In this document: positions 1 through 25,291 of the stretch, one piece after another
How positions within the stretch are numbered: position 1 is the stretch's first letter
How the letters are laid out: every line of letters begins with the position of its first letter
Assembly (NCBI GenBank): GCA_030265965.1
Contig: JAJDHA010000008.1
Coordinates: 1 to 44,111 of the forward strand
Direction: 5' to 3'
Source of the DNA: Odoribacter sp. OttesenSCG-928-L07
GTDB taxonomy: Bacteria; Bacteroidota; Bacteroidia; Bacteroidales; BM520
DNA: 44,111 nt
Position numbers and translations under genes: made by a program
Notes under the pieces: generated by a model
The model's database searches: none
What the model was told of the DNA's origin: nothing
What the model saw: the letters and a program-made list of their open reading frames with translations, nothing else

Positions 1-3000
1 TACTGCATAACCGATTAAAGCACAAGTACCATTAGTATTTGCTCCATAATATGTAGCGCCGTGAGTTAGTTCATCATTAATATCTAATGCTGTTTCTAAT
101 TCAGGTTCTAAGTACCATGTGATACCATAGCCCATTACTGTGATTTCTTTAACAGTAGCTTCATAACAGAATGATTGTGTTGCTACAAGATAGTCATAAT
201 CTGTAGGATCTATTACAATCTCTACTGCAACTCTTTGTGTGCTTTCGCAGTCGTCGCCAACTGTAATAGCAGCATAATAAGTAGCTGTTTCAAGAATATG
301 TTCAGGAGCTAAAACTTCTGTTCCGTCTAATGTTGCGTACCAATTAACATCATCATTAACAACAATACTACTAATCATAGCGCCTTCGCAGAATACTTGA
401 TCTTCAATAACAGGTATTGTTATAATTTCAGATGAAAATGTTATAGGCACAGTAGTAAGCGTTGTACTTTGACATTCGCCAATTACTTGAGAAGCAAACA
501 ATGTTATATTAGAAGTAAGATGTGTTGCAGGAGGCATAACAAAGCTTCCGGCAGCATCTAAGTACCAAACTACTGTTTGTCCGTTAACCGGCAGATCCAT
601 TATTCTGACTGTTCCCATTAAAGTTTCGCATAATTCAATAGGATCTATTACAGGAGCAGGAATTTCCATCTCAGGATCAATCTTAACATAAACATAAGAG
701 CGACCGCTTTCACAATTGCCTATGCTTTGAGATACCCAGTAAGTTGTTCCGTTAACCAACGGAGTTGATAATGGTAATGGTTCAGTACTTGTTTCACTTG
801 CATACCATTTAATATTTACGCCTTGAACTGAAATATTAGCTAAGGTTAAATTACCTGCTACTTCGCACAACTCAACAGGTGATTCCACTGTTGGAGGTGG
901 AACATTATCATAAATTTTAACAAGGACTGCTGCGCGTGCGCCTTCACAAATATCACTTGCGCTATTAGCTGCATAATATGTAGTATTATGTTCGAGCGGA
1001 ATTGTTAATGCAAGCGGAGCATCATCGTCTATTGTTGCATACCAATGTACACCGTGACCTATTACTTCGAGGTCGCCTATAGTTGCTCCTGCACAGAACA
1101 TTTGTTCATCAGGAATAATTGGCGCACTTGGTGTTGTTATTGTAATATTAACAGCTACGCGGGTTGTGTTTTCACATTCTCCTACTGCTTGAGCTGCGTA
1201 ATATGTTCTTGTTTCTAATACAGTAAGTTCTGATAACGGATCACCGCCTGTTGGCGACAAGTACCATACAATACTACTGTTTGGAACAATTACAGAAGCA
1301 AGTATTGCTCCTTCGCAGAATGATTGGTCTGCTATTGCAGGTATAATTGTAATTTCAGGAACTAAGGTAACAGTTACCGGAGTTCTTGTTGTACTTTCAC
1401 AATCTCCTAATACAAGACCTGCATAATATGTAGCACCAGGTACTAATGGTGTATGAGGATCTAATGGAATAGTATGAGTTTCATTAAAATACCAATTAAT
1501 TTCACCATAACCGTTTGTTAACAGATCTGCTACTGTTCCACCTGCACAGAATTGTTGCGGTGAAGTAATAACAGGAGCAGGAACAATCATTTCTTCGGTT
1601 AGAATAACCTTAACAGCAGTACGTCTTTCACTTTCGCAATGACCTAAGCTTTGTGAAGCCCAGTAAACCATTTCGTTTGTGAGAACTGTTGTTAATGGTA
1701 ATTCATTACCACCAACTTCTGCATCGTACCAACGAACATTAATTCCTTGAACTTGTACTGCTGCAAGTGTTAATGTTGTCGGAATAGTTACAACACAGAA
1801 TTCTTGTGGTGATGAAACAACCGGAGGATTAACATTATAATACAACCATACAGTAACAGGAGTAGTTTCGCCAATACATTCGTCATTAGTTTGAGCTGCG
1901 TAATAAGTAACACCGTGTGTTAATGGTGTATCTAAACCAACTTCATCTCCGTTTTCAGGAGCATCAAACCATTTTATACCTGAGCCGGTAACTTTAATAT
2001 TACCAACAGTAGGATTAACATCTTCACAGAAGAATTGTTCAGGATCTGCAATTGGCGCGCTTGGAATACCAACTGTAATTTGTACAGGTACACGCACTGA
2101 ACTTTCGCAATAACCAACAAGTTGAGATGCCCAATAAGTTCTATTTTCTAAAGGAGTATTCCAATCTTCTATCATTGTTGAATTACCTTCAAAATAATAC
2201 CAAATTATGTCATTATTAGGAACAGCTATATCAGCTAATGTCGCACCTTCACAGAATGATTGATCTTCTATTATAGGTATAAGAGTAATTTCATCAACTA
2301 CATTTATTACTACCGGAGTACGTTCAGTACTTTCGCAGTCACCTGCAACTAAAGCAGCATAATAAGTATTTCCATTTATCAATGTAGTATTAATTGGTAG
2401 CGGTGTATCGTCATCTACCGAGCTATACCAAGCTAAATTACTACCATCTGTAATAATATCTGCTAAAGTTGAATTTAATATTGGATTAATAAAATTACAA
2501 ACTTGTTGTGGTGATTCAATTACTGGAGCTTGAAGTTCAATAAAGTCTTTTACAATAGCTACAACCGGTGAACGGAAAACGCTTTCGCAGACACCGTTTG
2601 TTTTAGCAGCCCAGTATGTATTTCCATCAACTAATTCTGTATCTGAATCTAATGGAGTTCCGCCTGTATCAACAGAATACCAAATAATATCTTGACCGTT
2701 AGGTTTAAGATCTGATACATAAGCAGGCTCACAGAAGTTTTGTGGTGAAGTTACAATTGGAGGAAGAACAATAATTTCTTCTGTTGTAACTGCAAGCACT
2801 TCGCCTTCACAAGAACCATTACTTTGAACTGCATAATATATATTACCATCTTCAAGCATTGTAGATAATGGAAGCTCATTTCCGTTTGTTGCGGCATCAT
2901 ACCATTTAACACCTGCACCTGTGATTTCAAGGTCAGCTAATGTTGATCCGTAACAGAAGTATTGTGTTTGTTCAGCAATTGGAGCTTCATTTTCTAATAA

Positions 3001-3705
3001 TGTTATTGCAACCGGTACTCTGTGAGTAATTTCACAATCACCAACACTATAACCTGCATAATAAGTTCTTTGTGTTAATTTAGTATCAGGAGAAAGCGGA
3101 TAGCTATTATCAGGATCTAAGAACCATACAATATTTCCGTAATCGCCAACAACAATATCGCTGATCATAGCGCCTAAGCAGAATGATTGATCTGCAATAA
3201 CCGGAACTATTGTAACTTCACCAACAATATTTATTCTTACAGGTGCACGATAAGCGCTTTCGCAGTCTCCTGCAATAAAGCCTGCGTAATAAGTTACTCC
3301 GTCTGCTAATTCAGTTTCAGGAGCGAGTACATTACCATTAGTTGCAGCATCATACCATACTAAATTAGGATATGTAGTAATAATATCAGAAATAGTTGCC
3401 TCTGCACAGAATGATTGTGGTGAATCTATTTCTGGTGTAAGTAATGTTAATGATTGAACTACGCTAACTTTAACAGGTGAGCGTCTTTCACTTTCGCAAC
3501 CTGCTTCGTCGGTTTGACTTGCATAATAAATTTTGCCATCAACTAAAGTTTCGGTAAGTTCTAAAGCTTCTTCATCTTCTATTGCTGTTTCGTTTTCATA
3601 CCATTTAATATTTAATCCTTCAGCAATAAGATCTGCAACAGTAGCCGGTGAACAGAACTCTTGAGGAGTTGTAACAACCGGAGGCATAATATTAGGACAA
3701 TCATT
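1..3705 (-). repeat. Ig_7 (CHU_C-associated)-type repeat array 2, about 16 copies, continuing off the window
   Basis: Sixteen successive copies from CPNIMPPVVTTPQEFC to YDYLVATQSFCYEATV. Type-C copies (DQSFC) at + strand ~3179, 2252, 1316, 389: spacings 927, 936, 927 bp. Confidence 0.82.
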
Positions 3706-6700
3706 AGCAAGTACAAGGATACTTACCCAAGCAGTACTACAAGTATAAGTACCGTCATAAACACATAATTGATATTGGAATAAGTCGTTTCCATAGAAAC
3801 CTGAATTAGGTACGTATGTAAATGTTCCATTATTGTTAATGTTGGTTATGTATCCGTTAGTAGGTTGAGTTAAGATTGTTATTAATGGAGCGCTATTAGG
3901 ATAAATATCATTTGGTAGAACACCATTGTTAATAACTGTAATTTCAAGTTCTCCATCTTGAGTCATTGAATAGAAGTCAGGGAATGCAATGATTTGTTCA
4001 GGCTCATCTTCAAGAGGTGAAACTATTATAGTTACCCAAGTAGAATCGCATAATCCTATTTCATTACATATTTTGTATGAGAAGTAATCTGTTCCAACAA
4101 AATCTGTTCCCGGTGTATAATCAAATGTACCATCGCCATTATCTGTTAATGTTCCGTGAACTGGTTGAACAAGTACACTGCTTATACTAATAACACCACC
4201 GTCAATATCAGTATCATTATCCATAACACTCATATCATCTATTGAAACATTAACATCAGTTGTATATAAGTCAGGTACTGCTACCGGCGGACGTGGAGAA
4301 ATATATTCGTAAATAACTCTCAAGTACAGGTATGCATGTTGTATGTATCCACAATCGTGTTGTACTGTGTACATTACTGTGTCACAACCAACAAAACCTG
4401 CATTAGGAGTATAAGTATAGTAACCATTAGCGGCAATAGTAATACTACCGTTATTTGGTGTAGTATTCTCAATAACCGTAAGAACTGCATTGCTGAGTAA
4501 GAAGTCGATATCATTATCAAGCACGTTCGCGCTTACAGGTTTATTAACGTAGGTAATATTATAATCATTAACAGCAATAAGATAATTTGTTTCTGTTATG
4601 ATTTCTACATTAGATATGCTGAAAATACATCCATCAGCATCTGTTACCATAATATAGTATCTACCTACAGGTAGATTTGGAGCAGTAAATTTTCCTGGTG
4701 ATTGAATAATAAATCCAAAATTATCTCCAGCTGCAAAATGTGCGAAATAAGGAGCTGTTCCTCCTGTAATGTCGAGAACGATTTCTCCAATTCCTTCACA
4801 TGTTGCTAATGCCGGTGCTGCTGTAACACTCATTCCTGAAGTACTTCCTATAGTAAATTCTTCACTGTAAATACAGCCATAAGTATTTTCAATTTCAATA
4901 GTATGATTTCCGGCAGCTAGTGATGCTTGCGCTTCATTGTTTAGGAACGGCAATAACGGACCACCATTAATTGTGTATCTCCATGTGCCGGTGATGGCTG
5001 GTGGATCGATTGTTATTATTGCTTGACCGAGTGATGCACATGTAGCATTTGTAATATCAATATCGAAATTTAAGTCGCTGCCTGCTGTTTCAACAGTAAT
5101 ATCAACAACATCATAGCAACCTATTTCATCAACTACTGTAATGGTGTATGTGTCGGTAGCAAAACCATTTCCTATTGAGTAAGGATGTGCAGGTATTGGA
5201 AAATAATCCGTTCCGTTGATTGTGTATTCAACTACACCTACTCCACCTGTTACTTGAAGGAAGATTTCACCGTTGTCTGCACTACAATCTGTAGCTGGAG
5301 TTGCGCTTGCTATAGCTTTTAAATCGCTGCTTTCACTTCTTAATGTAAATGATGTATTAATAGCAGGAGCACAATTAGATGTGTTGGTATCCCAAATATG
5401 CATAATGTAAGCGCCTATGGTTAAATCTTCTATTAATCCGTTAGGAGCTAAAGGATATTTAGTATCGCCATTATCGAAATTATATTCGTAACTTCCGCTA
5501 CCACCTATAACTTCAACAACAATACTTCCAGATGCATCAGCATCATCGCATGTTGGGAATGTATTAACATATACAGATCTGACTTCAATAACTGCATTAG
5601 GATCTCTACCTATAACAATATTGTTAAGAGTAAGAACACAATCATCAGCAAAAATAAAGCTTACTGAATATGTACCTTCTGATAGACCTTCGATTGTTAG
5701 ATCTCCGGTTGCAGGAACATCCGATGGAGTATTTGAGCCAATATAATATTGAACAGGTCTGTCTAAATCGTCAAAAGTAATAGTTACACTTCCGCTGGCA
5801 GTACCGTCGCAAAGAGCGTTAGTAAAGTCAACAACTTCTGCAAATTTTTCACCTGGAGCATCAATTGTAATAGTCAGTTCATCTGTACAATAGCCTGAGT
5901 CAAAAACAGTAATGTTGTGGGTTCCTATTCCTACAATAATATCAGTTGTATCTCCAACCATACTTATTTTCGGACCATTGTTTAATTGATAAGAATAGAC
6001 TCCATTACCTCCTGTAACTGTAATATGAACCATACCGTCTTCATCACAAGTAGCTTCTTGCTTTACAGTATAAGCAACACTCATACCTGCATTTGCACCT
6101 ACAACAGCTGTAGTAGAAGCCACACAACCGTCATAATCTTTTACTAAAACACTATAAGTATCTGCATCAAGACTGCCTATGGTATAATTAGCCGGTAATG
6201 CTGAAAAGTCAGCATCAATACCTACCAACATATATTCGTATGGAGCTACGCCACCGCCTATGGATAAAATAATAGTACCATCAGATATAGATGACGAGCT
6301 TGTTTCATCATAACATGAAGAAGAAGGTGTTGTTGCTGCTGTAACTACTATATCGCTATTATACGGATTTAATGATATTGGACCGGCATAAGCAGGACCG
6401 CAGTAATCACCACTATTATCAACAACATAAACAGTATAACTTCCTGCAGCCAAATCTTCAATAATTCCATTTGCTGCTAAAGTATTTGTAAAAGGTCCGT
6501 TTTCATTGAAACTCCATGAGTAACTACCGCTACCACCTACAACCGAAACAAAAATACTACCTGTATTATCTGAACAAGAAGGTTGTGAAACAATATTTAA
6601 AGCATTAATTTCAATGGATGGTAAAACATTTACTTGTAAGTCGAGAGGCAATAATGCTTCGCAACCTGTATCATCTATTGCTGCAAATGCTCTATATAAT

Positions 6701-9700
6701 GTATTTTCTGTTGGAATAACAGTAACAATTTCACCTACATAACCTGAACCAACTAAATTAAGATCTTCGCCATCTACTTCGTAGAATGTGAAGGTTGTAT
6801 AATCAATATGTGATTGGTATGTAATATATTGTAACAAGTCAACACCATCGCCTGCACAAACAGTAATTTCACCGTCTTGAGCTATCGGCTGATAAACAAG
6901 AACCGGTCTTGGGTTAACAACGATTTCACGACTAACTCTCATGATATCAGTTCCGTTAAGCACATAGAATGCTGTTAAATTATATTTACCCGAATTATCA
7001 AATCTAAACCTTGCTTGTGAATCATTCTCAGTTACTGATGAATTTCCTTCCAGAGGAAGACGAGTTGGTGCCGTAGAAGAGCCTGAAACAATACTCATTG
7101 AATATGTGTACATATCCATTCCAGCAGGCACAGTAAATACTTCAATATCTCCAACGCATAATGTATCCGCTCCGAAAAGAGTTGAAATAGGTACAACCAT
7201 ATCATAACAACTACCACCATAATGTACAGCTAATAGCTGATAACCTTCTTGCGCCGGAACACTTATTTCGGGATCAAGTTCGAAAGTTGCACCTGCAATA
7301 TTACCAACAGTAGTGAAGTGTTGTTGAGCAACACGATTACTTTCTATTTTTTCATCAATATCTAAAATACCATTATTGTTTAAATCAATATAAAAATCAA
7401 TAAATAGATCATCGCCAGTATAGAATGCGGAAATGTTTTTTACTTCATATTGTCCTGTCCATTCATCATCAAGCATAACACCGTAACTTTTATCAGATGC
7501 TCCCAAGAACTCCATTTCATACCATTGAACTTTCATGCCGAAATAACTTGGGACTTCAGTTCTATAAAACTTACATATTATTTCATCACATTCTAATTCA
7601 CCACTATGAATTATTTCCATATAGAAGTCATAGGAATCACAAGCTGCTTCTTCGACAGAGAATTGGAAAGTAAAAGTTACTTCTTCACCTATGTCGATAC
7701 CTGTTTCCGGGAACCCGACCATATATTCCAAACCCGCATCATTATTAAGAGATATAGTGGGTTCTAATCCTACATATAGACCAGGATGAGTTGTACACTC
7801 AAAAGATCCCTCAATGTATTCCATTCCCGGAGGAATTAGGAAGTATATTGAATCATGATCATAATCAGGATAATCATATTCAAACTTATAAGTAGCAGTC
7901 CAAGTAATAATAGGACTATTCATTTCATTATCCGCATAATAAATGCGATTGTCATTATTTGTCGGATTTAAATTATTGTTAGGATCATGATTTTCTGAAG
8001 TCCAATCAACTGCTTTAGTAACATTTAAATAACTTATTAAAGAATATGTTGCCGGACTTGACTCATGGAAGTCTAATATGAAAGGATTTGCCGTTATTGT
8101 TTTTGGACTAACAGCATTTCCTGCTTCACCACAAGCATCACTTGCATTAAGAATAAAGTCGAAAGCACCATCAGAGAAGAATCCGCATGTTGCATTTACA
8201 TAAACTTTAAAATCAATAGAGTCTCCAGCAGACAATAAGAAGTCATCATCTTCTGTTGGAAAATGGAAATCTTCTGGCATTGTAAATGTAAAATACTGGA
8301 ATACGCTATCTCTGTCCATTACTATCGGACCAATAGTTGTGTTTGAAATATTATCATAATATTCAAACTCTGCTCTTACTGCATTAATACCTGTTGCAAT
8401 ACGATCGTCGAGTGCAAGAGAAATATTAGAAAGGTTTCCTTCTTCCAGAGCATAAGCCCTTAACTCATAAACTTGTTCTTCACAAGGAGTGATAGGTGAT
8501 TCCGGTTGAGAAACAAATATCAGGGCATCATCAACTGGTAAAGCTCCGTAACCTAATTCTATATCTTTATATATTTCGCCACATACTCCGGTATTAATTA
8601 TTAATCTTACCGTAACAGTATTATTTGTAACATGCGCCGATTGCGGACGATAAGTTACTGTTAGCGCATTAATACTTACAGGTTCTGCTGCACTACCACC
8701 ACTCGAATAAGGGAAGAAGTGTCCATTGCCATCTACAAATACACCACTTGCATTTTTATATTGCCATTGGTAGCGTTGAACTTGAGTAATATTTTCAATT
8801 ATTGGAGATAAGCCAAAAGTTCCTCCCGGACAAACACTTGAGTGAGAAGAAGTGAGTTCCATTGTAGGCATTTCATTTACATTTACAACAACTTCTTTTC
8901 TTTCTTCCGGTAAATTTTCACAGAAGTTAACAGCTGTGATAGCAACAAAATATGAAGTTGTATCTGTTAATACAGGAGTATCAAAAATTTCTCCGTAATC
9001 GCCTCTGCTTGTTAATGGATTATCATCAGCATCGTACCATAAATATGTAACCGGAACTTCAACGCCAGTTGCAATACCTGCAGTAAGCGTTGTTGATGAG
9101 CCTGTACAAATAGTAGCATCTGTTGTTACTATTTGAACCGGAGTTGCTGTTGGTAAAATATCAATTAATATAGGTGTTTGTTCACTTTCGCAATAATCAT
9201 TACTTTGAGATACGTAATAAGTTGCTTCATGAACTAATACGTCAGTTTCTGTTAAAACATTTCCTGCAGCATCATACCAATTAATATCATTACCTGTTCC
9301 TATGTCTGAAATAACAATATTTGCTATTGTAGATTCAGGGCAGAAACTTTGTGGAGAATCTGCTGTTAGAGCTGCCAAATCATAAATTGTAACTGTTACT
9401 GCTGTTCTTTCGCCTTCGCAATCGCCGTTAGTTTGTGCAGAATAATAAGTACTGCCGTTTGTTAATTCAAAATCTAATACTAAAGCTGTTGTAGCATCTA
9501 CTGTAGCAAACCATTTAACGCCTGCACCGGCAACTTCAAGGTCAGCAATTTTTGCAGAAACGCAGAATATTTGTGTTGCAGGAGTAATAACCACTTCAGG
9601 TTCGTCAATAGTAATATATACCGATCTGCGAGTAGAGCTTTCGCAACCATCATAAGCTCTTTGAGCAGCATAATAATATCCTTGAACCAGAACAGTTGAC

Positions 9701-12700
9701 GGGCTCAAAGGTTCGCCGCCTTCTAATGAAGAATACCATACAATATGATCATTAGGAGTAACAAGATTACCTACTAATGCGCCATCACAGAATTGTTGAT
9801 CTTCAATTGCAGGAGGCGTTTGTGGAGTTGCTTGAAGTACTCCTATTTCTGTACGGAGTGCGCTTTCACATTCTCCGGCTACGCTTGCTGCGTAATAGAC
9901 ACTACCGGCAGCAAGAGGAGTAGTAGAATCTAATGGGTCACCACCTGTTTCTGATGAGTACCATACAACATTTAATCCGTTAGTCCATAAATCTGCAACT
10001 GTCATTCCTTCAACAGAACAGAAACGTTGAAATAAAGGTAAAATAATAGGAGCATCTAATTCTAATTCTTCTACTATGATAACTTTAACATAGGAAGCTT
10101 CGCTTTCGCATAATCCGTTATTTTGTGTAACGAAATATATAGAATCATGATATAATGCTGTTGTTGGGCTTAAAAGTTCGCCGGCAGCATTGTACCATTT
10201 CAAGTTAACTCCAAGTGCATATAAATCGGCAACTGTAGCTTCTTCGCAGAATTCTTGCGGAGTTTTTACAGAAGGAGGATTAACAATAAGTTCGTTTACT
10301 GTAACTGCTGTAATTTCACCTTTACAATAGCCGTTGCTTTGAACTGCATAATAAGTTTCACCATCAACTATAGGTGTATTTACAGACAATTCTGTCTCAA
10401 GAGTAAATTCGGCATACCATGTAATACCGGCTCCTTCTACTACAATATTTGCAATTGTAGAAAGTGGACAAACATCTTGTACATCTTCTATTAGCGGAGC
10501 ATCGTATTCATCAATTGTTATTACAACAGGAATTCTTTCTGTTAATTGGCAATCGCCTGTTCCGTAAGCAGCCCAATATGTTCCTGTAACCAAACGTGTG
10601 TCAGGAGTTAAGACAAGGGTAGATGTTTCTGTCGGATACCATGTTACATTACCCGGAACAGTTAATTTAATATCGCTGATTGATGCTGCATCACAGAAGC
10701 TTTGATTTGCTATTGGATGAGAAATAAATTCTGATGCTTCAGTAAATTCAACTTCGGTGCGTAACGCGCTTTCACAAGCGCCGGCAACTCTTGCTGCATA
10801 ATATGTAGCACCGTCTGTAAGAAGAATATTATGATCTGTAATAGGTTCTGTTGCACTTGCAGATTCGTACCATACAATATTACTATAAAGTTGTGTGTAC
10901 AATCCAAGCGTTTCTCCAACACAGAAAGTATGCGCTAATATTGCAGGAGGGTCAAGTTCTTGCTCTCTCAAGAATACTAATACGTATGATCTTTGGTCGC
11001 TTTCGCAAATTCCAACAGATTGGCTTGCATAGTAAGTTCCGCCGTCTTCTAATGGGTAATCAGAAGCTAATGCTTCGCCACCGGTAGGAGCTAAGTACCA
11101 TTTAATATTTTGTCCGGAAGCTACAAGGTCTGCAACAGTAGCAGGAGGACAGAATATTTGTGGTGATTGAACAGATGGAGGAGCAACAACAGGACAAGGT
11201 ATTTGATTTACATATATATAAACCCAAGCCGTATCACAAGCAACATCTGTATCTGTTGCACATAATTTATACATAAATGCATCAGTTCCGTAGAATGTAA
11301 CATCCGGCAAATACTCAAAAGTACCGTCAGCATTCAAGCTTATTGCACCATTTGACGGTTGAGATAATAGAGTAACAACCGGTGTAAATCCGTTATATAA
11401 GTCGTTTCCTAATACTGAGTTTGCTATTAACACCTCATTTTGAGGAACTGTGTACCAATCCGGGAATGCATAGATTATATCTTCATTTGAAGTAACAACA
11501 ATAGTTACCCAAGTAGAGTCGCAAAGATCTTCATATTCATTACTACAAACTTTATAGTAGAATACATCCGTTCCTACGAAGTTAAAATTCGGTTCATAAC
11601 TGAAAGTACCGTCACCATTATCGGTTAAAGTACCGTTTGAAGGTTGAGAAATAATATAAGGATCTGATAAAGTTCCTCCATTACGTTCTGTATCATTAAC
11701 TCTAACATCCATAATTTCTATTTCTTGATTTACATAAGTAGAATAGAAATCTGTAATTGCAACAGGTGGTAATGGGTCTTCAATAATAATATCATCAAGC
11801 ACAGTAATGATCAACAGAGCTTGGGATTCTAATCCGCAAGTGTTAATAACAGTATATGCAATAGTGTCGATACCTATGAAATCTTCTACAGGCAAATAAG
11901 TATAATTTCCAAACTCATCTATATTTATTGAGCCACCTTTTGTAGGCGTTTCGAATCTAACTAATGTCAACAAATTATTATTATAATCGAAGTCATTATC
12001 GAAAATATTTCCTGTTGCTTGAGTGTTTTTATAAATAACATTAAAATCGTTATTCGCATTAATCATTTCGATTGCACGATTAATGGTTATTTTTTCATAA
12101 GTTGCAATACAACCCATTGCATCTATCACAGATAGTGAATAAACACCAACTGGAAGATCGGTAATATTAACATCTCCTGCTTCAACACCGGTCTTATTTA
12201 TAAGATCTTTACCGATAATTGAGTATGGAGCAGTCCCTCCTGCAATATTTAATTGAATGCTGCCTCCTGTTGTTCCATCACACGAAGCATCTTTTGTAGT
12301 AACAGAAGACAGAATAATGTCAGCCGTATTGTCAATATATATTTCAGCATCTGTAATACATCCGTTATTATTACTAACTATTACTTTATGCCATCCGGCA
12401 GTAACGTCTTCAATAACGCTATTAGTTACAAAGGCTCTCCAATCTTTCCCATCGAGTTGATATCTCCATACGGAGTTATCACCAGCAGACGGACTTATTG
12501 TAATATTCATTATACCATTATACATACAATAGGCTGGTTGGACTTGAGACAGAGATAAACCAATGGAAGTAGGATTAACATTTACAGTCGCTTGAGCAGA
12601 AACTGCACAATTCAATTCGTCATCAAATACTGTTACAAGATATGTTCCTGATTTATATAAACCAAGATTACCATCTTCAGGAAATGGGTTAGCCGTAGCG

Positions 12701-15700
12701 TCATCTATTGAATAAGTTAGATTACCCTTATAACCAACAACATTCGCACTAATTGAACCTTCCTCAACATCACAACCGGAAACCGTACTTCCTGTTACAA
12801 AAAGCATAAAGTCGTTGCCTCTTGGCGACAATTCTATTGGATTACTAACAACAGGAGTACAATTTGGATTTAGCGCGTCCCATACATAAATAGTATAAAC
12901 ACCTAAAGATAATCCGTCAATTATTCCATCTCCTAATTCGTACTTATTACTTAAACTTGTAGAATATGCCCATTCATAAGATCCGCTACCACCACTAACA
13001 ATTAATCTTATTGCTCCTCTTATTTCGCTCAAGCAAGCTGGTTGTTCTACCACATATATAGATTCAATTTTTAAATCAGAACTCGGATCTCTACCAATTT
13101 GTATATCATTAATAGTAAAGTTACATCCGCTTTCGTAATAGAAAGTTATTGAATAAGTTCCTTGTGCAAGACCTGTAACAATAAAATCTCCTGTTGCTGC
13201 TGCAGTATAATTAACACCTGCAATAGTGTAAGAGGTTGGTCTTGGAGAGCTTGTAGTTCCTACTCTGAAAATAGCGCTACCACCCGAAGTTCCGTCACAT
13301 GGTGCATCTATTGTACTAATAAGATCAACTCCTTCTTCGCTTTGAGTATTAACATAAACATAATCCGAAGCATAACAATTGTTGGCATCAATTACCTCAA
13401 CAAAATGGTATCCTGCAGGAGCTTCAACTGTTAATACTGTTCCAATTAAAGGAATAGCATTTCCATAATTTAATATATATGAATATTGCTCAGTACCGCC
13501 TGAAACATTAATTCTGAATGTTCCCGGTCTTCCGTCACAATAAGCATATTGAGTTGTTGTCAAAGTTAATTCAATTCCAATTTCTGCTTCAACTGTTGCC
13601 AATGCAGATGCAGTACAACCGTTAGCATCTGTAACATTAACTACATAATCGCCGGGAGTATAAGTTATTCCTAAATTTCCGTGAGCAGGTACTAATGCCG
13701 GAGTAACAACATCAAATCTACTATCAATAATACCTTTTAATGTATATCTATATGGTGAAGTTCCTCCACCTACACTCAAATGTATCTGACCATCGCCAAT
13801 ACCACAGGTAGTAGCAGGTCCTGTTTCTAAAGAAATAGCAAGATCCGTATTATCTTCTATAGTAATATAATCTGTTTTAACAGGAGGACAAGCTAAGTTA
13901 CCGGCTTCACGAACAATAAAATAGTAAGTACCGGCAGCTAAATCCGAAATTACTCCGTTGTCAGCTAATGGTAAAAATGCTCCTTGTCCGTTTATTTGGT
14001 ATTCATAAGTACTTGCGCCTACAGCAGTAATTCTTACTGCTCCGGTAGTTGTTCCACATAAAGGTTGAGCTGCAATGCTTATTGATGTAACATTAATATT
14101 TGGTTCATTGCTCATACCTATTTTAATATTGGTATGAGTTGCTTCGCAACCATCATTACCTAATACATGTAAAGTATATGTTCCTTCAGCAAGATTGTCT
14201 ATTGTTACCGGACTTGCGGTAATATCTATATAATCACCTTCATCTATACGGTAACTGAAAGAAGAACTTGATCCTGTAACGCTAAACGTTATAGTACCGC
14301 CAGCTGTTCCGTCGCACTTAGCATCAGTTTTAATGATATTGGAAATAGCAATATTGCCATCTCTAAATGGGATTACAAATGATCCGGTACGCATACATCC
14401 GTTTGCATCGAATACAGTAATTGAATAATTTCCGGCTGGAAGATCAATTAATGTTTCCATTCCTGCAAATGTTACGTAATCATAACCGCTAACTCTGTAT
14501 GAATAATATGGATTAGGGTCGGTTGAAGGTGGAACTGCAATTGTTAATCTCACCTGACCATCGCTTACACAAGTAGCAGGGCTTACATTTGCAATGCTTG
14601 CAGAGAAACCGTATGTTGAACTAATAACAATTCCGCTTGCATATACAAAACAACCTTCTGCATCTGTAACTTTTAATTCATGTTCGCCGTTAGCAAGTTC
14701 TGTAATCATACCATCAGTACCTACGGTAGTTTCTACACCGTCGAGTTCATATATATAAGGTGCAATACCACCGTCAACAAGAACTCGAAGTGAGCCTGTT
14801 GCATCGCCGCAATATACTGTTGGATTAATTTCTAAAACAGTAACACTAAGATTTGTGTTTTTAGGAGTTAATCTTATCGGTTCGCTTTCAGCAGGAGAAC
14901 ATGTCAGATTATCTAAATCTTGAACATAAACAGTATATACTCCGGCAGCTAAGTCGCCAATGATACCATCAGCGCTTAATGGCTCATAATCTGTTCCGCC
15001 ATCAAGATTATATCCGTAGCGTCCTTCACCGCCATAAACAGTGATATGAATACTACCGGTTTCGTCGGTACAATTAGGTTGAGTAACAACGCTGATACTA
15101 CCTATATTAATATTAGTACCTTTTTCCAATCCGATAGTAATACCGGGATAATTAATATAACATCCGTTATCATCGCTTACTTCTAATTCATAAGTACCTA
15201 CAGGTAAGTTAGGAATAGTAACAGTAACAAAATTAGTTCCTGCTTGTCTTTCTATTTCTTTATATTCTCCATCACCGAAGGTATAGTATAATGTATTAAG
15301 GTTATCATCTAAGAATTCAAGTTTCATAATAATCTGACCACCTGATTCATTTTCGCAAGTTGCATCTATCTTTTCAACACTAACATAAGCAAAACTTGGT
15401 TTTTCATGTTCTATTTCAAAAGTTTTGCTTACTCCACAATTATTATTATCAATAACAATAATAGTATTTAATCCGACATAAGATAGAATCGTAATAGACT
15501 CTTGTCCACGGATGAATTCTTTCCAACCTTGACTGTTTAATCTATATCTATATGGTTCGTTAGTAACATGATAATTATCTATTGTAATTGTTGCCATTGC
15601 ACCAAGTTCCTCACAATCAACATGTGTCTCTTTTGTTATTGTCAATTGCAAATCGTTTTCTGCTGAGATAAGAACTTCTTCAAGCGGATACTCACATTCG

Positions 15701-18700
15701 TCGGAATCTTTAACCCAGATATAATATCTACCTTGTGCAAAGTTTATTGGTAGTATTCCATTATCAGGTAATACATTGTATTCGCTGTTAAGTCTTCCTT
15801 CTACCTTATAATAATAAGGTGCCTTGCCTCCGTTTGCAATAAGTTGAATTTGTCCGTCTTCATCGCCGCAACTTTCAATATTGTTAATAATAATGGCTTC
15901 AGCTGTAAGATCAGTGTTAATCGGCACTAAACTTATAGATAGACTTTGTGAAGGATCGCATGCCAACGCAACTTTATTATGAACATATATAGTATAATGT
16001 CCGGGAGTTAAACCGGTTATTTCCAAAACTCCATTGTCATCTAATGTAAATGGAGTAAAAGGACCATTTGCATTATTAATACTATACTCGTAAGAATTTG
16101 CCTCGTTTTCATTTCTTGCAAATACACCGAGCCAAATTGAGCCGTTATCTTCACCACAATCAGGATACTCTAAAACACCTATTGACCAAATTTCGGGCAT
16201 TTCATCAACGATTACAGTAAATTCAAGAGAGTTGAAAGCCTCGCATCCTTCTTCTCCAACTTGTCCTGTAACAAGATAAGTTGTGGTAACTTCAGGATTA
16301 TCGTAAACAGGTCCGTCTTTGGTAGTACCTACAAGAGTATAATCATATTGTTGTGTTTCTTCATTCAATACAGGTTTGTAGAACGAAAATACTGTTCCTT
16401 CTACCTCGTTTGCATCTTTAATAAATTCACTTAATTCTATGATATTTCCTAAGCATAAACGCTCTGAATCTCCACTAACAAAGTCTAAAAGAGGTGTTTC
16501 GACAACTTCAATACGTATACTAACCGGAACTAATGTACGTTCTCCGAAAGATGAAGTAGCTGTATATGTCCAAGTAAATTCAACTGGACCTACCTCTGGA
16601 AATACCAATATTATCTCTTCAGGAATTTCGTCTCCTTCATCAACTAAATACTTAGGAGTAGCGCCTGTTACACCATCAATCGATTTCGACGTATATAGGT
16701 AACCCGATTTATCCGGTACCGAATAATATGTAACAGGATTACCGTGAATGATAGTTTCTGTAATGTTTCCATTTTCATCTTTTACTTCTTCTATATAACT
16801 TCTACAAACTTTATTAGGTCCGTAAAGTGTTGGGATAGGCATAACATATTCTTCACATAAAAGCTCATTATTAAAAATTCGCATTAAGAATTGTTTGCCT
16901 TTTTCTATCCTTAAACTTGCCTCATCCGGCAACGTAATTCTAAAACCATCATTTTCATCTAATTCTTCAGTAGTATATAGGTGAGTATATATAGCTTCGC
17001 CATCTTCAGAATCTAAAGTGTCGTTATTATTCTCATCTATGTAATATTCAATTGTAAATTCTCCTTCTGCAATAAAATCGGTAAGGTTAGTAAAATCAAA
17101 GTAACCTGTCCAAGTAGTATCTGCAATCGGATTAGCATAACTTTGAAGTTGTCCATAAGTAGGGCTAAGTTCATCATTATCTGTTAAATATTCATAGTCT
17201 AAGTCTATAATATATCCTTCAACTTCAAATTGAACATATACACTACCTAAGGGTTCGTTAATTTCACAAGGTACGCCTTCACATGAAGCTACAATTTCGT
17301 AAAATACTTGATTATAACTTCCGTAAACTCCGCAACTTACATTAGTAACGTCAAAATCAAGTTCCCAACCAAAAGAATCTCCAACTCTTAATTCTGTGGG
17401 TATTAAAATAGAATATTCACTACCTTGGGAGTCAACGATAATCTCATCATCAGAAACCTCATATTCTACTCCGTTTAACCTAAACTCACCTTGTTCATAA
17501 TTTGGTGGTAATAAGAATACCATATATTCAATTCCTGAGGTTACATATTCATCATCAAAGAATATATCATAATTATCTCCACCATCTAAGCTATATTCAA
17601 ACGGTGCATCACCTCCTGTAACAGAAATTGTAATATTTCCTTCATTTAAACCTGTGCTACAACTTGCATCGGTTATATTGGCTAATATATAGTATTGTTC
17701 AATATCTTCTCCAACTTCTCCATAATTTCCGAGAATATCAATACCTACAAATATTTTACCTTCAGAGCTACAACCACCGGCATCAGTTACTTTCCATGTA
17801 TGTAAACCTATTGCTAAATTTATATTAGCATTAGATGCAACAAGACCATCTATATAATAGGTATAAGGTCCGGTACCGGAAATAACATCTAAGTTTATAC
17901 TTCCTGTTGGAGCATCAGTACCGGATGGAGTACTTGTAGCTTGTACTGACAAAATATCAGTAACGCCGATAACAATTTTTCCTGAACCTACAATACAATC
18001 ATTTGCATCTATGATATTAATAAAATGTGTACCCGGTGTTAAATTAGAAATTACAGCACCATCCAAAATTGGTAACCAACTTTGAGCTCCATCCAAACTA
18101 AATCTATAATCGGGAGTTCCACCTGTAATTCCCACTGTTATTGCTCCATCATTAATTTCATAATTTGTAGCGTTAGTAACATCAATATTCAATTCTAAAT
18201 TACTGCCCGATGTTGATATGGTGGCAACTTCACTAAGAGTACATGTATTATCTCTTACATAAATAAAATAAGTACCAGCTGCAAGATTTCTAATTACACC
18301 ATCAGAAGGCAATGCAGCATAAACTCCATTTTCGGTAAACGAATATAGATAAGAATCACTTCCACCATTAACCAAAATGGTAATAGATCCATCATGATTA
18401 CTACATGTAGCATCAGAAGTATTAATGATAACACTATGATTACAACATCCTGTTATTTCTTCAATTGAAACAAGACCAAAATCAAAGGTCTCACCTTTTG
18501 CATCTTTAACACTAATGTCATAAGTCCCAACCTCTTTATCTAAACTTACGCTTGTTGCTGCAATAGTATATGTTGCAGTCCAAGTTCCACTGTTACCTGT
18601 TTCATTAGTATTTATTAGTGGGTCGAGTTCATTTTCGATAACATAAGTAATATTTGCTCCCAAAGCTGTTTCTGTAAGGAAAGGTTTTGAGATAAGGCGT

Positions 18701-21700
18701 TCGTTGATTTTTAAAACATCACAAGTACCTATAGCATCCAATACAACAGTATAATAGTCGCCGCTATAGAAACCGCAATCTCCCATCACCTCAATTCTAA
18801 CCATCACTGATTGATCCGGTTCTAAAATAAATTCATTACTTTCAATATCAGGGAATTTCCAACTTGTAGTAGAAGACACATCTGGGTCATCACGATAGCT
18901 TTCTTCCATTTGTATTCCTTCTCCTACAATTTCGCCATTTGTATCAAGAATAAAATAGTAGGCATCAGATACAGTGATTAAGGTATTGTTTGTATCTTCA
19001 AAAGTTACTTCCATATCTTGTATATTACCTTCGCCTGTTGATTCTATTTTTACTTCATAAAAAACAGGGTCGCAAACTTCCTGATATCCTTCTGGTTGGC
19101 TAACCCATGTCAACTCAGCAGAAGTAGGATAAGGTAATATTTCCAAAGGAAGATTATCAATAATATATCCGCAAATAACAGTATTAACTCTTAGATGTAT
19201 TGAAATATTATTTTCAGTAGCATTTGCTCTTTTATAGTTTGCGTAAATTTCGTCAATACTGTTAACAGTGGCATTAACCTGCATTGGACTAAAAGCGCCT
19301 ATGGGGTCAACTTCATAGCCATTAGGATCGTCTTCATCGGTTAAATACCAGCCAAACCAACCACCTGAAATTGTTTCAAGGTTCTCAATTTCAGCCGATA
19401 ATGCAAAACTTTCAGTATAACATTTTGAATCATTATCAACAAGAATATTAAGTACAGGCATTTTTTGTACTGTTACAGTAATTTCTCTACGCTCATTAAC
19501 AGGGTTTTCACAATAATTAGTTCCCGAAACAGAGATATAATATGTAATAGTTTCTGTTAATCCTGTCGGAGTATATACAGCACCCGTGTGAATAGGTTCT
19601 TCTGCCGTTTGAGAAGTGTACCATTTATATATAGGGGTTGTTACTCCTGAAGCTGCTGCAGTAAGCGTAGTGGTGCCACCCTGTCTTGTTCCACCCTGTC
19701 CGAAATCTAATTCCCCATCTTCACAGATACGGGTAGTACCGGATACTGAAGTTATTAAATCGACAGTTGCGTAAGGGTTAACGGTGATATCAATACTTGC
19801 TCTCGTAGCAGACACACAACCATCTGTTCCAACCATAGCCTCTACATAATAGGTAAATGTAGTTTGGGTAGTTACTGTTGGTAATATTATATTAACAGGT
19901 GTACCCGAACCAATTGATGTTGTTCCGTCAGGACTATCATACCAATTAATAGTTGTACCAATATCTGATGTTGCTGTTAAAGTTACTATACCCCCCGAGC
20001 ATTGTACTTCAGATATTGTTGTTGTAATATTTATTGTTGGCAACGGTGAAACTGTAAGAGTAAACGAAGCGCGTTCGCTATCGCATAATAATCCTGTTTC
20101 ATCAGAAACAAGAGCCACCCAATAAGTTCCGGCCATATCAGATGTTACATTAGTAAATTCGCTATCAATTGGTGTAGGATCAGTCTCTGAAATATAAAAA
20201 TTATATGTTCCGTCGGCAACAGCATTTATCAAATTTATAGTTCCGTTTAAACAAACAGATAAATTATTTGTTGACGGAGCCGGAAGAATAGGATATACCG
20301 TTATTACAACATTAAACGGATCACCTTCACAAGGGTCTTCGGTACCGGTTACGGTAGTAGGAGTAACCGTATAAACTATAGAAACAGGAGTTATACGATT
20401 GCTTGTAAGCGTACCGCTAATAACAGTAGCACCATCTCCGGCAGCTAATCCTGTAACACCTACTGAATCCGGTGCTGCCCAAGAAAATGTTGTTCCTTCA
20501 GGAATTACATCTTCTCCAAGAATATCTTGCGGGTCAATAGAGAAAGAGCTTCCTGTACAAATATCTTCAGTAAACGGATCTTCAACATTAGCTTTTGGTA
20601 ATACTGTAATGACAATATCGTTCATGTCGGTAAAACACATGGATCTATCTATTTGCGCCTGCACTCTGTATGTTGTAGTAACATCAGGAGTAACAACAGG
20701 TGGAGAGATTTGAGTCCATTGCTCATTAATAAATTCATACAAACGTACCGTATATGTATATCCATCAGGGTATTCAACAGGATCCGCTTCTTCACTTGCT
20801 TCATATAATGTTACTAAAGCTTGTAAATCCACTGATTCTCCCTGACATATTGTAAGCTGATTTGCATCAATACTTATTTCTGGTATTGGCAAATCAACAA
20901 GATAAAATGTCCAATAACATATATTATTAGGATCAGTTGGTATGGCATAATATGGTCTCCTATTAGACGGTTCATCAGGATAAAATGAGTTTGGAGCCGG
21001 AAAATCAGATGTAGAGGTAAATTCCACACAGCCTTGACTTGCAAGCGGTCTACCTGGATCATACACCGTACACCCTTCCGGTGCTTTACCTGTTTCCTCA
21101 TCTATATGACTAAAGAATCTAACACCTGCCATAAAATAACTACTAACGGTACTATATTCGGTAGAAGTAGGTGTTTCTCCACACAAACTGATCGTACGTA
21201 TTTCAAATAAATTCTCTTCATTACATTCTTCCGGAGCATTAATCCTTAACACCGGCGGAACAGTAATAGGCTCTTCTTCACATGGGTATCTTTTAAAACC
21301 GTAAACAAAGGGCCACTTTGCAAAACTTACACCGGTTTCATGCCCCCATCCCGAAGACTCTCCAAAAATAGTAACAGCAGGAACACATTCTTGCGCCCCA
21401 GCCAAAATATAACAATCATCTGTAACTACCACTTCAAAAGTTAAGCGTGCCAAAAGGTCATATACCTCTATTTGTATGCAATCAGGATCAGTAAGATCGT
21501 CACCCGGACAAGAAAGTTCGACATGATGTGGCGACTGATAAACATAATCTCCCACATACCATTCAACTTGTCCGCCTGATCCTATTTGCGAATTAAAAAC
21601 AATCTTTGAATTATTATGATCCGGAATTGTAACTCCGGGGTATTTTATGCTATACCCGTCTAAAAGGGCTCTTGTCCAATTATATTGCGCAACAACAGAT

Positions 21701-23640: not shown

Positions 23641-24237
23641 TTATTGTAGTATTGATAATTGATATAAAACTGTTACAGGTTTATTTCCTGCTTTTATCAT
23701 ATTTTGCGTTCTTGTGAGTAAACAGGAATCACTCATATTACCACAAGCATCGTAAGTAAAACTTATAACAATATATTCTAAATTGTCAAAGTTTTCAAGT
23801 TGAGAAATATCCAAATCGGAATAAGCGGCTCCATCAACATAAATACGAAGCACTTTGACTTCTTTAAAAGATTCGTTCCCGCTATACAAACTATTAATTG
23901 CGTTATTATGACAATATGCAACAACAGGAGTTTCATGAGAATTTTGCCCCACTCCTTCGGTATTAATCGTAATGTACGGATTCATTCCGAACAATAATTG
24001 GTTTAGTTGTTCATTGTTATTAACAACTTGTTCCACCGGCAAAAAAGTTATTTCGCCTGTTGGCACAGGAGTGTTAAATAATATACTCCGAGAGTTAGTA
24101 GTTTCATTGATAATGCTTGCCGGAGTAATTTCATTGGCAGCATTTAAGTTGGTAAAACCAAATATCAAAACTGATATTAGCACCATACCCACAGATGAAA
24201 TGCGGGTTTTTGATTTTTGTGTCTCTTGCTTTCTCAT
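23641..24237 (-). CDS. Small secreted hypothetical protein upstream of giant gene (198 aa)
   Basis: ORF track; signal-peptide-like N-terminus MRKQETQKSKTRISSVGMVLISVLIFGFTNLNAA; same strand, 12 bp before the giant ATG. Confidence 0.8.
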   Translation of the reverse strand: MRKQETQKSKTRISSVGMVLISVLIFGFTNLNAANEITPASIINETTNSRSILFNTPVPTGEITFLPVEQVVNNNEQLNQLLFGMNPYITINTEGVGQNSHETPVVAYCHNNAINSLYSGNESFKEVKVLRIYVDGAAYSDLDISQLENFDNLEYIVISFTYDACGNMSDSCLLTRTQNMIKAGNKPVTVLYQLSILQ

Positions 24238-24788: not shown

Positions 24789-25291
24789 GGGCTGAAAGCC
24801 TGTATTAAAAATAAAAACCATGTCACAATCATTATCAAAATTATTTGTTCATATCGTTTACCATATCAAAACAACATCAGTAAAAATACGAAATCAAGAT
24901 AGAAAAGATTTGTATGCATATATTGGTTCTATCATCAAAAACAATGAATGTATCCCAATCATAATCAACGGTACAGAAAATCACATCCATATTCTTTGCG
25001 TGATGTCAAAGAATATATCATTAGTAAAATTGGTTGAAGATATTAAGTGTCAAAGTAGCCGATGGATCAAAACATTTAATCCTTATTACAAAAAGTTTGC
25101 ATGGCAGGGAGGGTACGGAGGATTTTCTGTAAGTTCTTCATTACATGATAAAACCAAAAATTACATCAAAAATCAGGACGAGCATCACAAAAAAAGAACG
25201 TTTCAAGAGGAGTATCAAATGTTTTTAAATGAATATGATATTGAATTCGATGAACGTTATATTTGGCGAGATTAACTCAGGCTTTCAGCCC
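24789..25291. mobile_element. Putative minimal IS200/RAYT-like element bounded by 14-bp perfect inverted repeats
   Basis: GGGCTGAAAGCCTG at 24789-24802 and its exact reverse complement CAGGCTTTCAGCCC at 25278-25291 flank the transposase ORF. Each is also a small hairpin (GGCT-GAA-AGCC). Confidence 0.6.
24820..25275 (+). CDS. IS200/IS605-type (Y1_Tnp, REP-associated-like) transposase
   Basis: 151 aa; FVHIVYHIKTT..., HUH motif ENHIHIL, ...KLVEDIKCQSSRWIK, ...FAWQGGYGGFSVS, YIKNQDEHHKKRTFQEEY (candidate catalytic Tyr). Confidence 0.9.
   Translation: MSQSLSKLFVHIVYHIKTTSVKIRNQDRKDLYAYIGSIIKNNECIPIIINGTENHIHILCVMSKNISLVKLVEDIKCQSSRWIKTFNPYYKKFAWQGGYGGFSVSSSLHDKTKNYIKNQDEHHKKRTFQEEYQMFLNEYDIEFDERYIWRD

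Follow-up and report, generated by a model that had tools for sequence, protein, structure and literature searches.

The giant gene and its repeat arrays

The window analysed here is a stretch of 44,111 nucleotides, corresponding to one entire contig (C96) of the draft genome of Odoribacter sp. OttesenSCG-928-L07 (1.67 Mb, 74% complete), hereafter G000. Its minus strand carries a giant open reading frame, the orthologs of which are a frame of 11,884 codons, interrupted by one in-frame TAA, in a genome of the same genus (G001) and a 14,117-codon frame in a Bacteroidales MAG (G544). A second contig of G000 (C39) is also concerned. The features are as follows.

1..23628, minus strand: giant open reading frame of at least 7876 codons, starting at 23628 and open at the contig edge
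9151..11181, minus strand: upstream second Ig_7 array of the same protein, with ABCD at 11181-10279, ABCD at 10278-9373 and one A-like domain at 9363-9151
3685..4128 (limits approximate), minus strand: Big_9/cadherin-like region, from Big_9 and Cadherin_4/5 matches in the protein of 12000..3706
2764..3684, minus strand: quartet 1 (A 3684-3439, B 3438-3208, C 3207-2989, D 2988-2764), ortholog of quartet 1 (Q1) of G001 and of G544
1828..2763, minus strand: quartet 2 (A 2763-2530, B 2529-2281, C 2280-2059, D 2058-1828), ortholog of Q2 of both relatives
898..1827, minus strand: quartet 3 (A 1827-1579, B 1578-1345, C 1344-1126, D 1125-898), ortholog of Q3 of both relatives
1..897, minus strand: quartet 4 (A 897-658, B 657-418, C 417-196, D 195-1), its D cut by the contig end
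G000 contig C39, 18183..9526: locus L046, assigned as the downstream part of the window's gene, with a T9SS C-terminal domain
G000 contig C39, 7963-9453, minus strand: OmpA-family gene following L046

The last 1228 residues of the frame form the 16 Ig_7 domains of the main array (3684..1, minus strand), 15 of which are complete while the 16th is cut at 65 aa by the contig end. Their order is (ABCD)x4, which bears out a sequence-only reading of this DNA that had described about 16 Ig-type repeats cycling through four types; the head motifs given there for types A to D hold essentially as stated, with deviations in repeats R13, R14 and R16. In Pfam, the protein of window positions 1-3705 scores 287.6 bits against Ig_7 (PF19081, curated cut-off 27.3) over 8 stretches. 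The Big_9/cadherin-like region sits immediately N-terminal to the first A repeat, and SprB repeats are also present elsewhere in the giant protein. In the upstream array, the second domain of the second ABCD is ambiguous between A and B. The cycle of this upstream array is also found in both relatives; the additional A-like domain is shared by G000 and G001, whereas G544 has exactly two quartets.

Twelve bp upstream of the giant gene and on the same strand lies a 198-aa open reading frame (23641-24237) with a signal-peptide-like start, which has no match in Pfam or NCBIfam. The giant gene also has an IS200-like Y1 transposase gene close upstream (24820-25275, plus strand).

On C39, the downstream part comprises D(ABCD)x3, other domains and then a T9SS type A sorting domain. 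Judged by orthology with G001 and G544, C39 continues the gene of the window, the join between C96 and C39 being itself unassembled. C96 stops within one D and C39 starts within another, hence the rest of a D and an A, B and C, possibly together with whole further quartets, are missing in the gap. The product of the whole G000 gene has a length of at least 10,762 residues. At its C-terminus, the T9SS sorting domain TIGR04183 scores 50.4 bits (cut-off 23), and SprA_N is present in all four genomes checked (G000, G001, G544 and the more distant G395). The N-terminus of the giant protein resembles a signal peptide, as judged by eye. At the position that matches the OmpA-family gene, G001 has a 491-codon frame (446239..444767).

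Four-domain period of the window array

The type-C domains of the window start at 3207, 2280, 1344 and 417, which reproduces exactly the spacing of 927, 936 and 927 bp reported from the sequence alone. Mean amino acid identity between the 16 repeats is 33.5, 31.1, 33.7, 43.4, 35.7 and 31.3% at lags 1 to 6 and 31.1, 40.7, 33.6, 30.5, 31.6 and 36.8% at lags 7 to 12. Lags 4, 8 and 12 stand out, every other lag falling between 28 and 36%, and lag 4 exceeds lags 1 to 3, the comparison on which the sequence-only reading had staked its claim. The in-register excess amounts to 8.9 points for protein and 6.1 points for DNA, and none of 20,000 shuffles of the repeat order was as extreme for either. Growth in two steps, first of a pair and then of a pair of pairs, was considered and rejected, as lag 2 has the lowest identity of the short lags (31.1%).

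Clustering of repeats n and n+4 had likewise been predicted. When the 16 repeats are placed in a maximum-likelihood tree, each type forms one side of a branch and the labels require the fewest possible changes, a value reached by 0 of 200 shuffles. Support is 99/97 (starred) for C, 92/90 for D, 74/47 for A and 15/0 for B; that C alone is strongly supported is expected, since the alignment has just 77 columns. The type-specific columns cluster in linkers, domain ends and loops (columns 1-7, 20-25, 46-48, 54-56, 62-66 and 72-76).

At the DNA level, the copies of the window are old. Identity at lag 4 is 56% and the longest exact repeat is 18 nt, hence the domain order in this array records descent and not ongoing DNA homogenisation. 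The description of the array as satellite-like is apt as an analogy of organisation but wrong for age, the copies being ancient. A dot-plot with diagonals at about 930 bp over weaker ones at about 232 bp had also been foreseen. The DNA of the window shows this pattern only in part: of five blastn self-matches, four lie at lag 4 or 12, in agreement with the longer period, one lies at lag 5, and none lies at lag 1. At identical degenerate residues, the codon is shared in 47.7% of the cells that are in register and in 42.0% of those that are not, with 42.1% expected from codon usage, a comparison given without a p-value because the cells are non-independent. This codon sharing points to descent over convergence as the probable source of the likeness in register.

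Phase-locked arrays in related genomes

In G001, the ortholog lies on a 493-kb contig and its main array of 52 domains reads (ABCD)x13. The in-frame TAA (G001:C1:459346-459348, locus L044) falls in the A domain of quartet 5 and divides the gene into frames of 7544 and 4339 codons; it is either a point nonsense change or a sequencing error. In G544 (Bacteroidales bacterium isolate Fux382_bin47, contig JAIRVY010000066.1), one frame of 14,117 codons encodes the entire protein; its upstream array reads (ABCD)x2, and the 80 domains of its main array read (ABCD)x20. Outside the arrays the proteins are colinear. The best local alignment of the window protein with that of G001 has 55% identity over 5889 columns and the one with G544 has 41% identity over 5995 columns, both reaching the main array.

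The domains of G001 and C39 were typed with models built from the 16 repeats of the window alone, which called 52 of 52 and 13 of 13 domains in cycle, respectively. For G544, the models were built from G000 and G001, none being trained on G544 itself; all 80 domains were called in cycle, with a smallest margin of 11 bits over the second-best type. The nearest neighbour of a domain is in register for 50 of the 52 domains in G001 and for each of the 80 in G544. Consequently, not a single phase slip is found among 161 typed domains from three species (29 in G000, 52 in G001 and 80 in G544).

All of these genomes are drafts, the longest exact repeat in the array being 114 nt in G001 and 22 nt in G544. 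With just 22 nt, the count of 20 quartets in G544 is robust to short-read collapse, while the count of 13 in G001 could be slightly off owing to its 114-nt repeat. In G003, a genome of the same genus that is 98% complete, the quartet profile has no match, hence the distribution of the giant array across the genus is patchy.

Conserved ends and a renewed centre

The quartet tree resolves each of Q1 to Q3, and each of the last two quartets, as a 1:1:1 clade of the three species with starred support. Central quartets mostly group by lineage, and quartets 5-18 of G544 join no quartet of G001 or G000. The nearest relative of quartet 4 of the window is Q8 of G001, a quartet of central type. The same division is seen within G001, where Q1-Q3 are only 44-47% identical to their own neighbours and Q12 is 47% identical to Q13, whereas the central quartets Q4-Q11 are much more alike (54-84%). 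Mean identity to the other quartets is 41-48% for the first three and last two and 52-58% in the centre. The sharing of end quartets and the lineage grouping of central ones imply that the ends are old and that the centre was renewed and changed in number (13 versus 20).

Recent exchange of DNA is visible in G001. Exact 20-mers recur chiefly at distances of 933 and 1866 bp, nearly all the remainder lying near whole quartet multiples. Domain pairs with more than 65% DNA identity number 68 in register and 0 out of register, and near-identical tracts, present in this array at offsets of one and two quartets, are absent at offsets of one, two or three domains. One fresh tract, of about 270 nt, is shared by the A domains of Q5 and Q7; the other, of about 500 nt, is shared by B-C of Q5 and Q6. 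Being shorter than a quartet, these tracts speak for in-register conversion more directly than for whole-quartet duplication, the gain of whole quartets being inferred from copy number.

Between-quartet distances agree across domain types in G001 (Mantel p<0.03 in 5 of 6 pairs, with r=0.84 for C and D). The signal is weaker in G544 (p<0.03 in 3 of 6 pairs, r up to 0.34), as expected of saturated old copies, and does not prove block copying there.

The proposal that the array expanded by quartets and not by single domains was thus corroborated by three observations in the relatives: 13 and 20 quartets in phase, recent DNA exchange in G001 at whole-quartet offsets only, and outer quartets that are orthologous across species around a lineage-specific centre. 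The array shows lag-specific identity beyond chance and has a multi-domain block as its duplication unit, the two marks of a super-repeat; the second follows from the 13 versus 20 copies, the orthologous ends and the fresh in-register DNA.

Lone quartets and other Ig_7 arrays

Lone ABCD quartets were found in more distant genomes, once in Spi319_bin22 (L070) and twice in G395 (L080 and L088), with a weaker case in L072. In L070, L080 and L088, and weakly in L072, ABCD fits better than any alternative arrangement of the types and clearly outscores its rotations. In the other order-level matches, L081-L087 and L089-L090, and in L071, the ABCD order gave no convincing fit. A second protein of G544 holds another lone match, at the level of the quartet as a whole. 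In the window protein itself, the upstream quartet U1 is the sister of Q1 of the main array. The lone quartets, together with the relationship of U1 to Q1, indicate that the module was present, and was moved, as a single unit prior to the long arrays or independently of them. The proteins of G395 and the second protein of G544 end in a different tail: quartet-profile matches L098 (G544:C132), L099 and L100 (G395) lie in proteins in which a dockerin-like GDxNxD tail, recognised by eye, stands in place of the T9SS domain.

Twelve other Ig_7 arrays of at least 8 domains each, a non-random sample drawn from the best-scoring matches, were surveyed. Nine have no period, one has period four, one has period five and one has a doubtful period three (L116). 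A four-domain cycle as a generic trait of Ig_7 arrays was accordingly rejected. The array with period four (L056, G053:C722, frame from base 8466) has 19 domains and 59% amino acid identity at lag 4; common ancestry with it was rejected because its types do not map on A-D. The array with period five (L126, G372:C4, minus-strand frame, aa 724-1627) has 11 domains and an excess of 6.6 points, reached in 0 of 500 shuffles. Block duplication therefore recurs in the Ig_7 domain family, and the array family of the window is the longest and most regular among those surveyed.

Predicted structure and role

AlphaFold2, run with an alignment of 19 quartets, modelled quartet 3 (898..1827) as four beta-sandwich domains with a pLDDT of 91 and a pTM of 0.84. 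The best PDB matches of this model in Foldseek are fragments of Aureispira GhpA (9fls_A, E 1.5e-11), with low TM-scores (0.19), and vertebrate Ig proteins follow close behind. A search of PDB chains with the quartet profile returned chance matches only, and the N-terminal 4876 aa of the protein matched no chain at E<=0.001. The likeliest role would be that of a secreted, surface-exposed stalk, to judge from the T9SS signal, from the SprB and Big_9/cadherin-like repeats and from the usual character of proteins of this kind.

Proposed mechanism and alternatives

The preferred reading, to which we assign a probability of roughly 0.88, is that the array is a super-repeat in which the ABCD module came first and was later multiplied as one block, mainly in the interior of the array, the product being a putative T9SS-secreted stalk. 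Direct observation supplies its basis, namely the four-domain cycle, the phase-lock, the conserved ends and variable centre, the in-register copying in G001 and the lone quartets. Four Ig_7 domains would have differentiated into the four types to give a fixed module, which would then have been amplified in tandem as a unit of about 310 aa (about 930 bp), chiefly mid-array. Unequal recombination in register, or gene conversion between quartets, may drive this amplification, so that end quartets would be retained while the number of central quartets shifts by lineage. Recombination between quartets would be the mutational step, its register presumably set by the greater likeness of DNA at lag 4. 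The product would be a long, stiff, adhesin-like extracellular stalk secreted by the T9SS, the reach of which would depend on the number of quartets.

Selection for the four-domain cycle as a functional unit, for example one turn of a superhelix or a composite binding site, could be added to block copying and does not compete with it. Under such selection, single-domain insertions and deletions would be eliminated, as suggested by the lack of phase slips in 161 domains, and the phase-lock would be a ruler-like property of the sort proposed for titin. G544 even keeps phase at 51% DNA identity at lag 4, which is seemingly too low for homologous recombination now. The linkers are type-specific, the four-domain AlphaFold2 model is confident, and the lone quartets of other proteins retain the ABCD order. 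However, the phase could persist passively if single-domain insertions and deletions lack the homology to arise, and selection for the cycle is considered possible but on balance doubtful. Equally tentative is a broader idea, which sees the quartet as a structural or binding unit under selection and the protein as a bacterial ruler or stalk that changes length only in four-domain steps, by insertion in mid-array, as a counterpart of the titin C-zone.

It is improbable that the number of quartets was fixed in an array built once, long ago, with only in-register gene conversion since. The fresh tracts of G001 are conversion-sized, and the short longest exact repeats of G544 (22 nt) and the window (18 nt) imply no fresh copies there, but 13 quartets in G001 and 20 in G544 between 1:1 orthologous ends require that quartets were gained or lost since the split. 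A GhpA-like grappling-hook protein, as in Aureispira, would explain the top Foldseek matches of the quartet model; given the low TM-score, the nearly equal closeness of vertebrate Ig proteins and the lack of a PDB chain matched in sequence by the N-terminal 4876 aa or the quartet profile, this identity is very unlikely, and membership of the GhpA group was rejected for want of sequence homology, the likeness probably being one of Ig fold only. Least probable of all is growth domain by domain with later selection making repeats n and n+4 alike by convergence on four structural roles, since, even if type-specific columns lie at domain ends and loops as positional constraint predicts and 9 of 12 other Ig_7 arrays have no multi-domain period, the excess sharing of synonymous codons in register is a sign of descent, recent DNA copying occurs in register only (in-register DNA identity already largely refutes convergence), quartet distances are concordant across types in G001 and the end quartets are 1:1:1 orthologous.

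Comparison with known systems

Within the Bacteroidota, ordinary Ig_7 arrays (PF19081) share the domain family and occur in similarly large proteins, the difference being that 9 of the 12 surveyed have no period. The Acinetobacter protein BAP is also a giant protein made of several distinguishable Ig-like module types; neither BAP nor other giant adhesins with Ig arrays are known to have a strict multi-type cycle, and they are not T9SS proteins (PMC4647330). Periscope Proteins are bacterial surface rods of tandem folded domains, in which highly identical repeats vary in number at the population level (PMC9704523). By comparison, neighbouring repeats of the giant Ig_7 array are about 25-45% identical and their number varies between species, each represented by one genome; with 43% amino acid identity at lag 4 and a longest exact DNA repeat of 18 nt, the window array does not consist of the highly identical tandem repeats that characterise these proteins. 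A search of the open-access literature found no bacterial four-Ig super-repeat array.

For protein domain repeats, expansion by several domains together, often in mid-array, is described as the rule, the seven-domain super-repeat of nebulin being the type case; in the same survey, Ig is among the domains most often duplicated singly and repeats are rarer in prokaryotes (PMC1553488). The giant array resembles nebulin in its autocorrelation peak at a fixed multi-domain lag and in the expansion of several domains at once, but the recent duplications of nebulin are biased to the C-terminus (PMC1553488).

There is also a close likeness to the C-zone of the titin A-band, which contains 11 copies of an 11-domain super-repeat, with central blocks most alike and diverged ends, and for which growth in mid-array was proposed (PMC10665226). 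Both arrays consist of tandem Ig-superfamily domains in a fixed order, duplicated as blocks, in which domains at the same position resemble each other, and G001 displays the same gradient of identity from the ends to the centre. The titin C-zone, however, is eukaryotic, mixes Ig with FnIII domains and attaches to a thick filament whose periodicity is known, whereas the giant Ig_7 array consists of a single domain family with period 4, in a bacterial secreted protein, and its copy number varies between related species. Multi-domain duplication as such is already known from nebulin and titin, and the long phase-locked bacterial array is a new variation. Block duplication has been known mainly from these animal giants; here it is found in bacteria, with 52 and 80 domains strictly phased, ends conserved and centre variable. 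The array makes it testable what determines how large a duplicated block is and whether selection or in-register recombination maintains super-repeats, and it offers a second system, free of the constraints of muscle, for comparison with titin.
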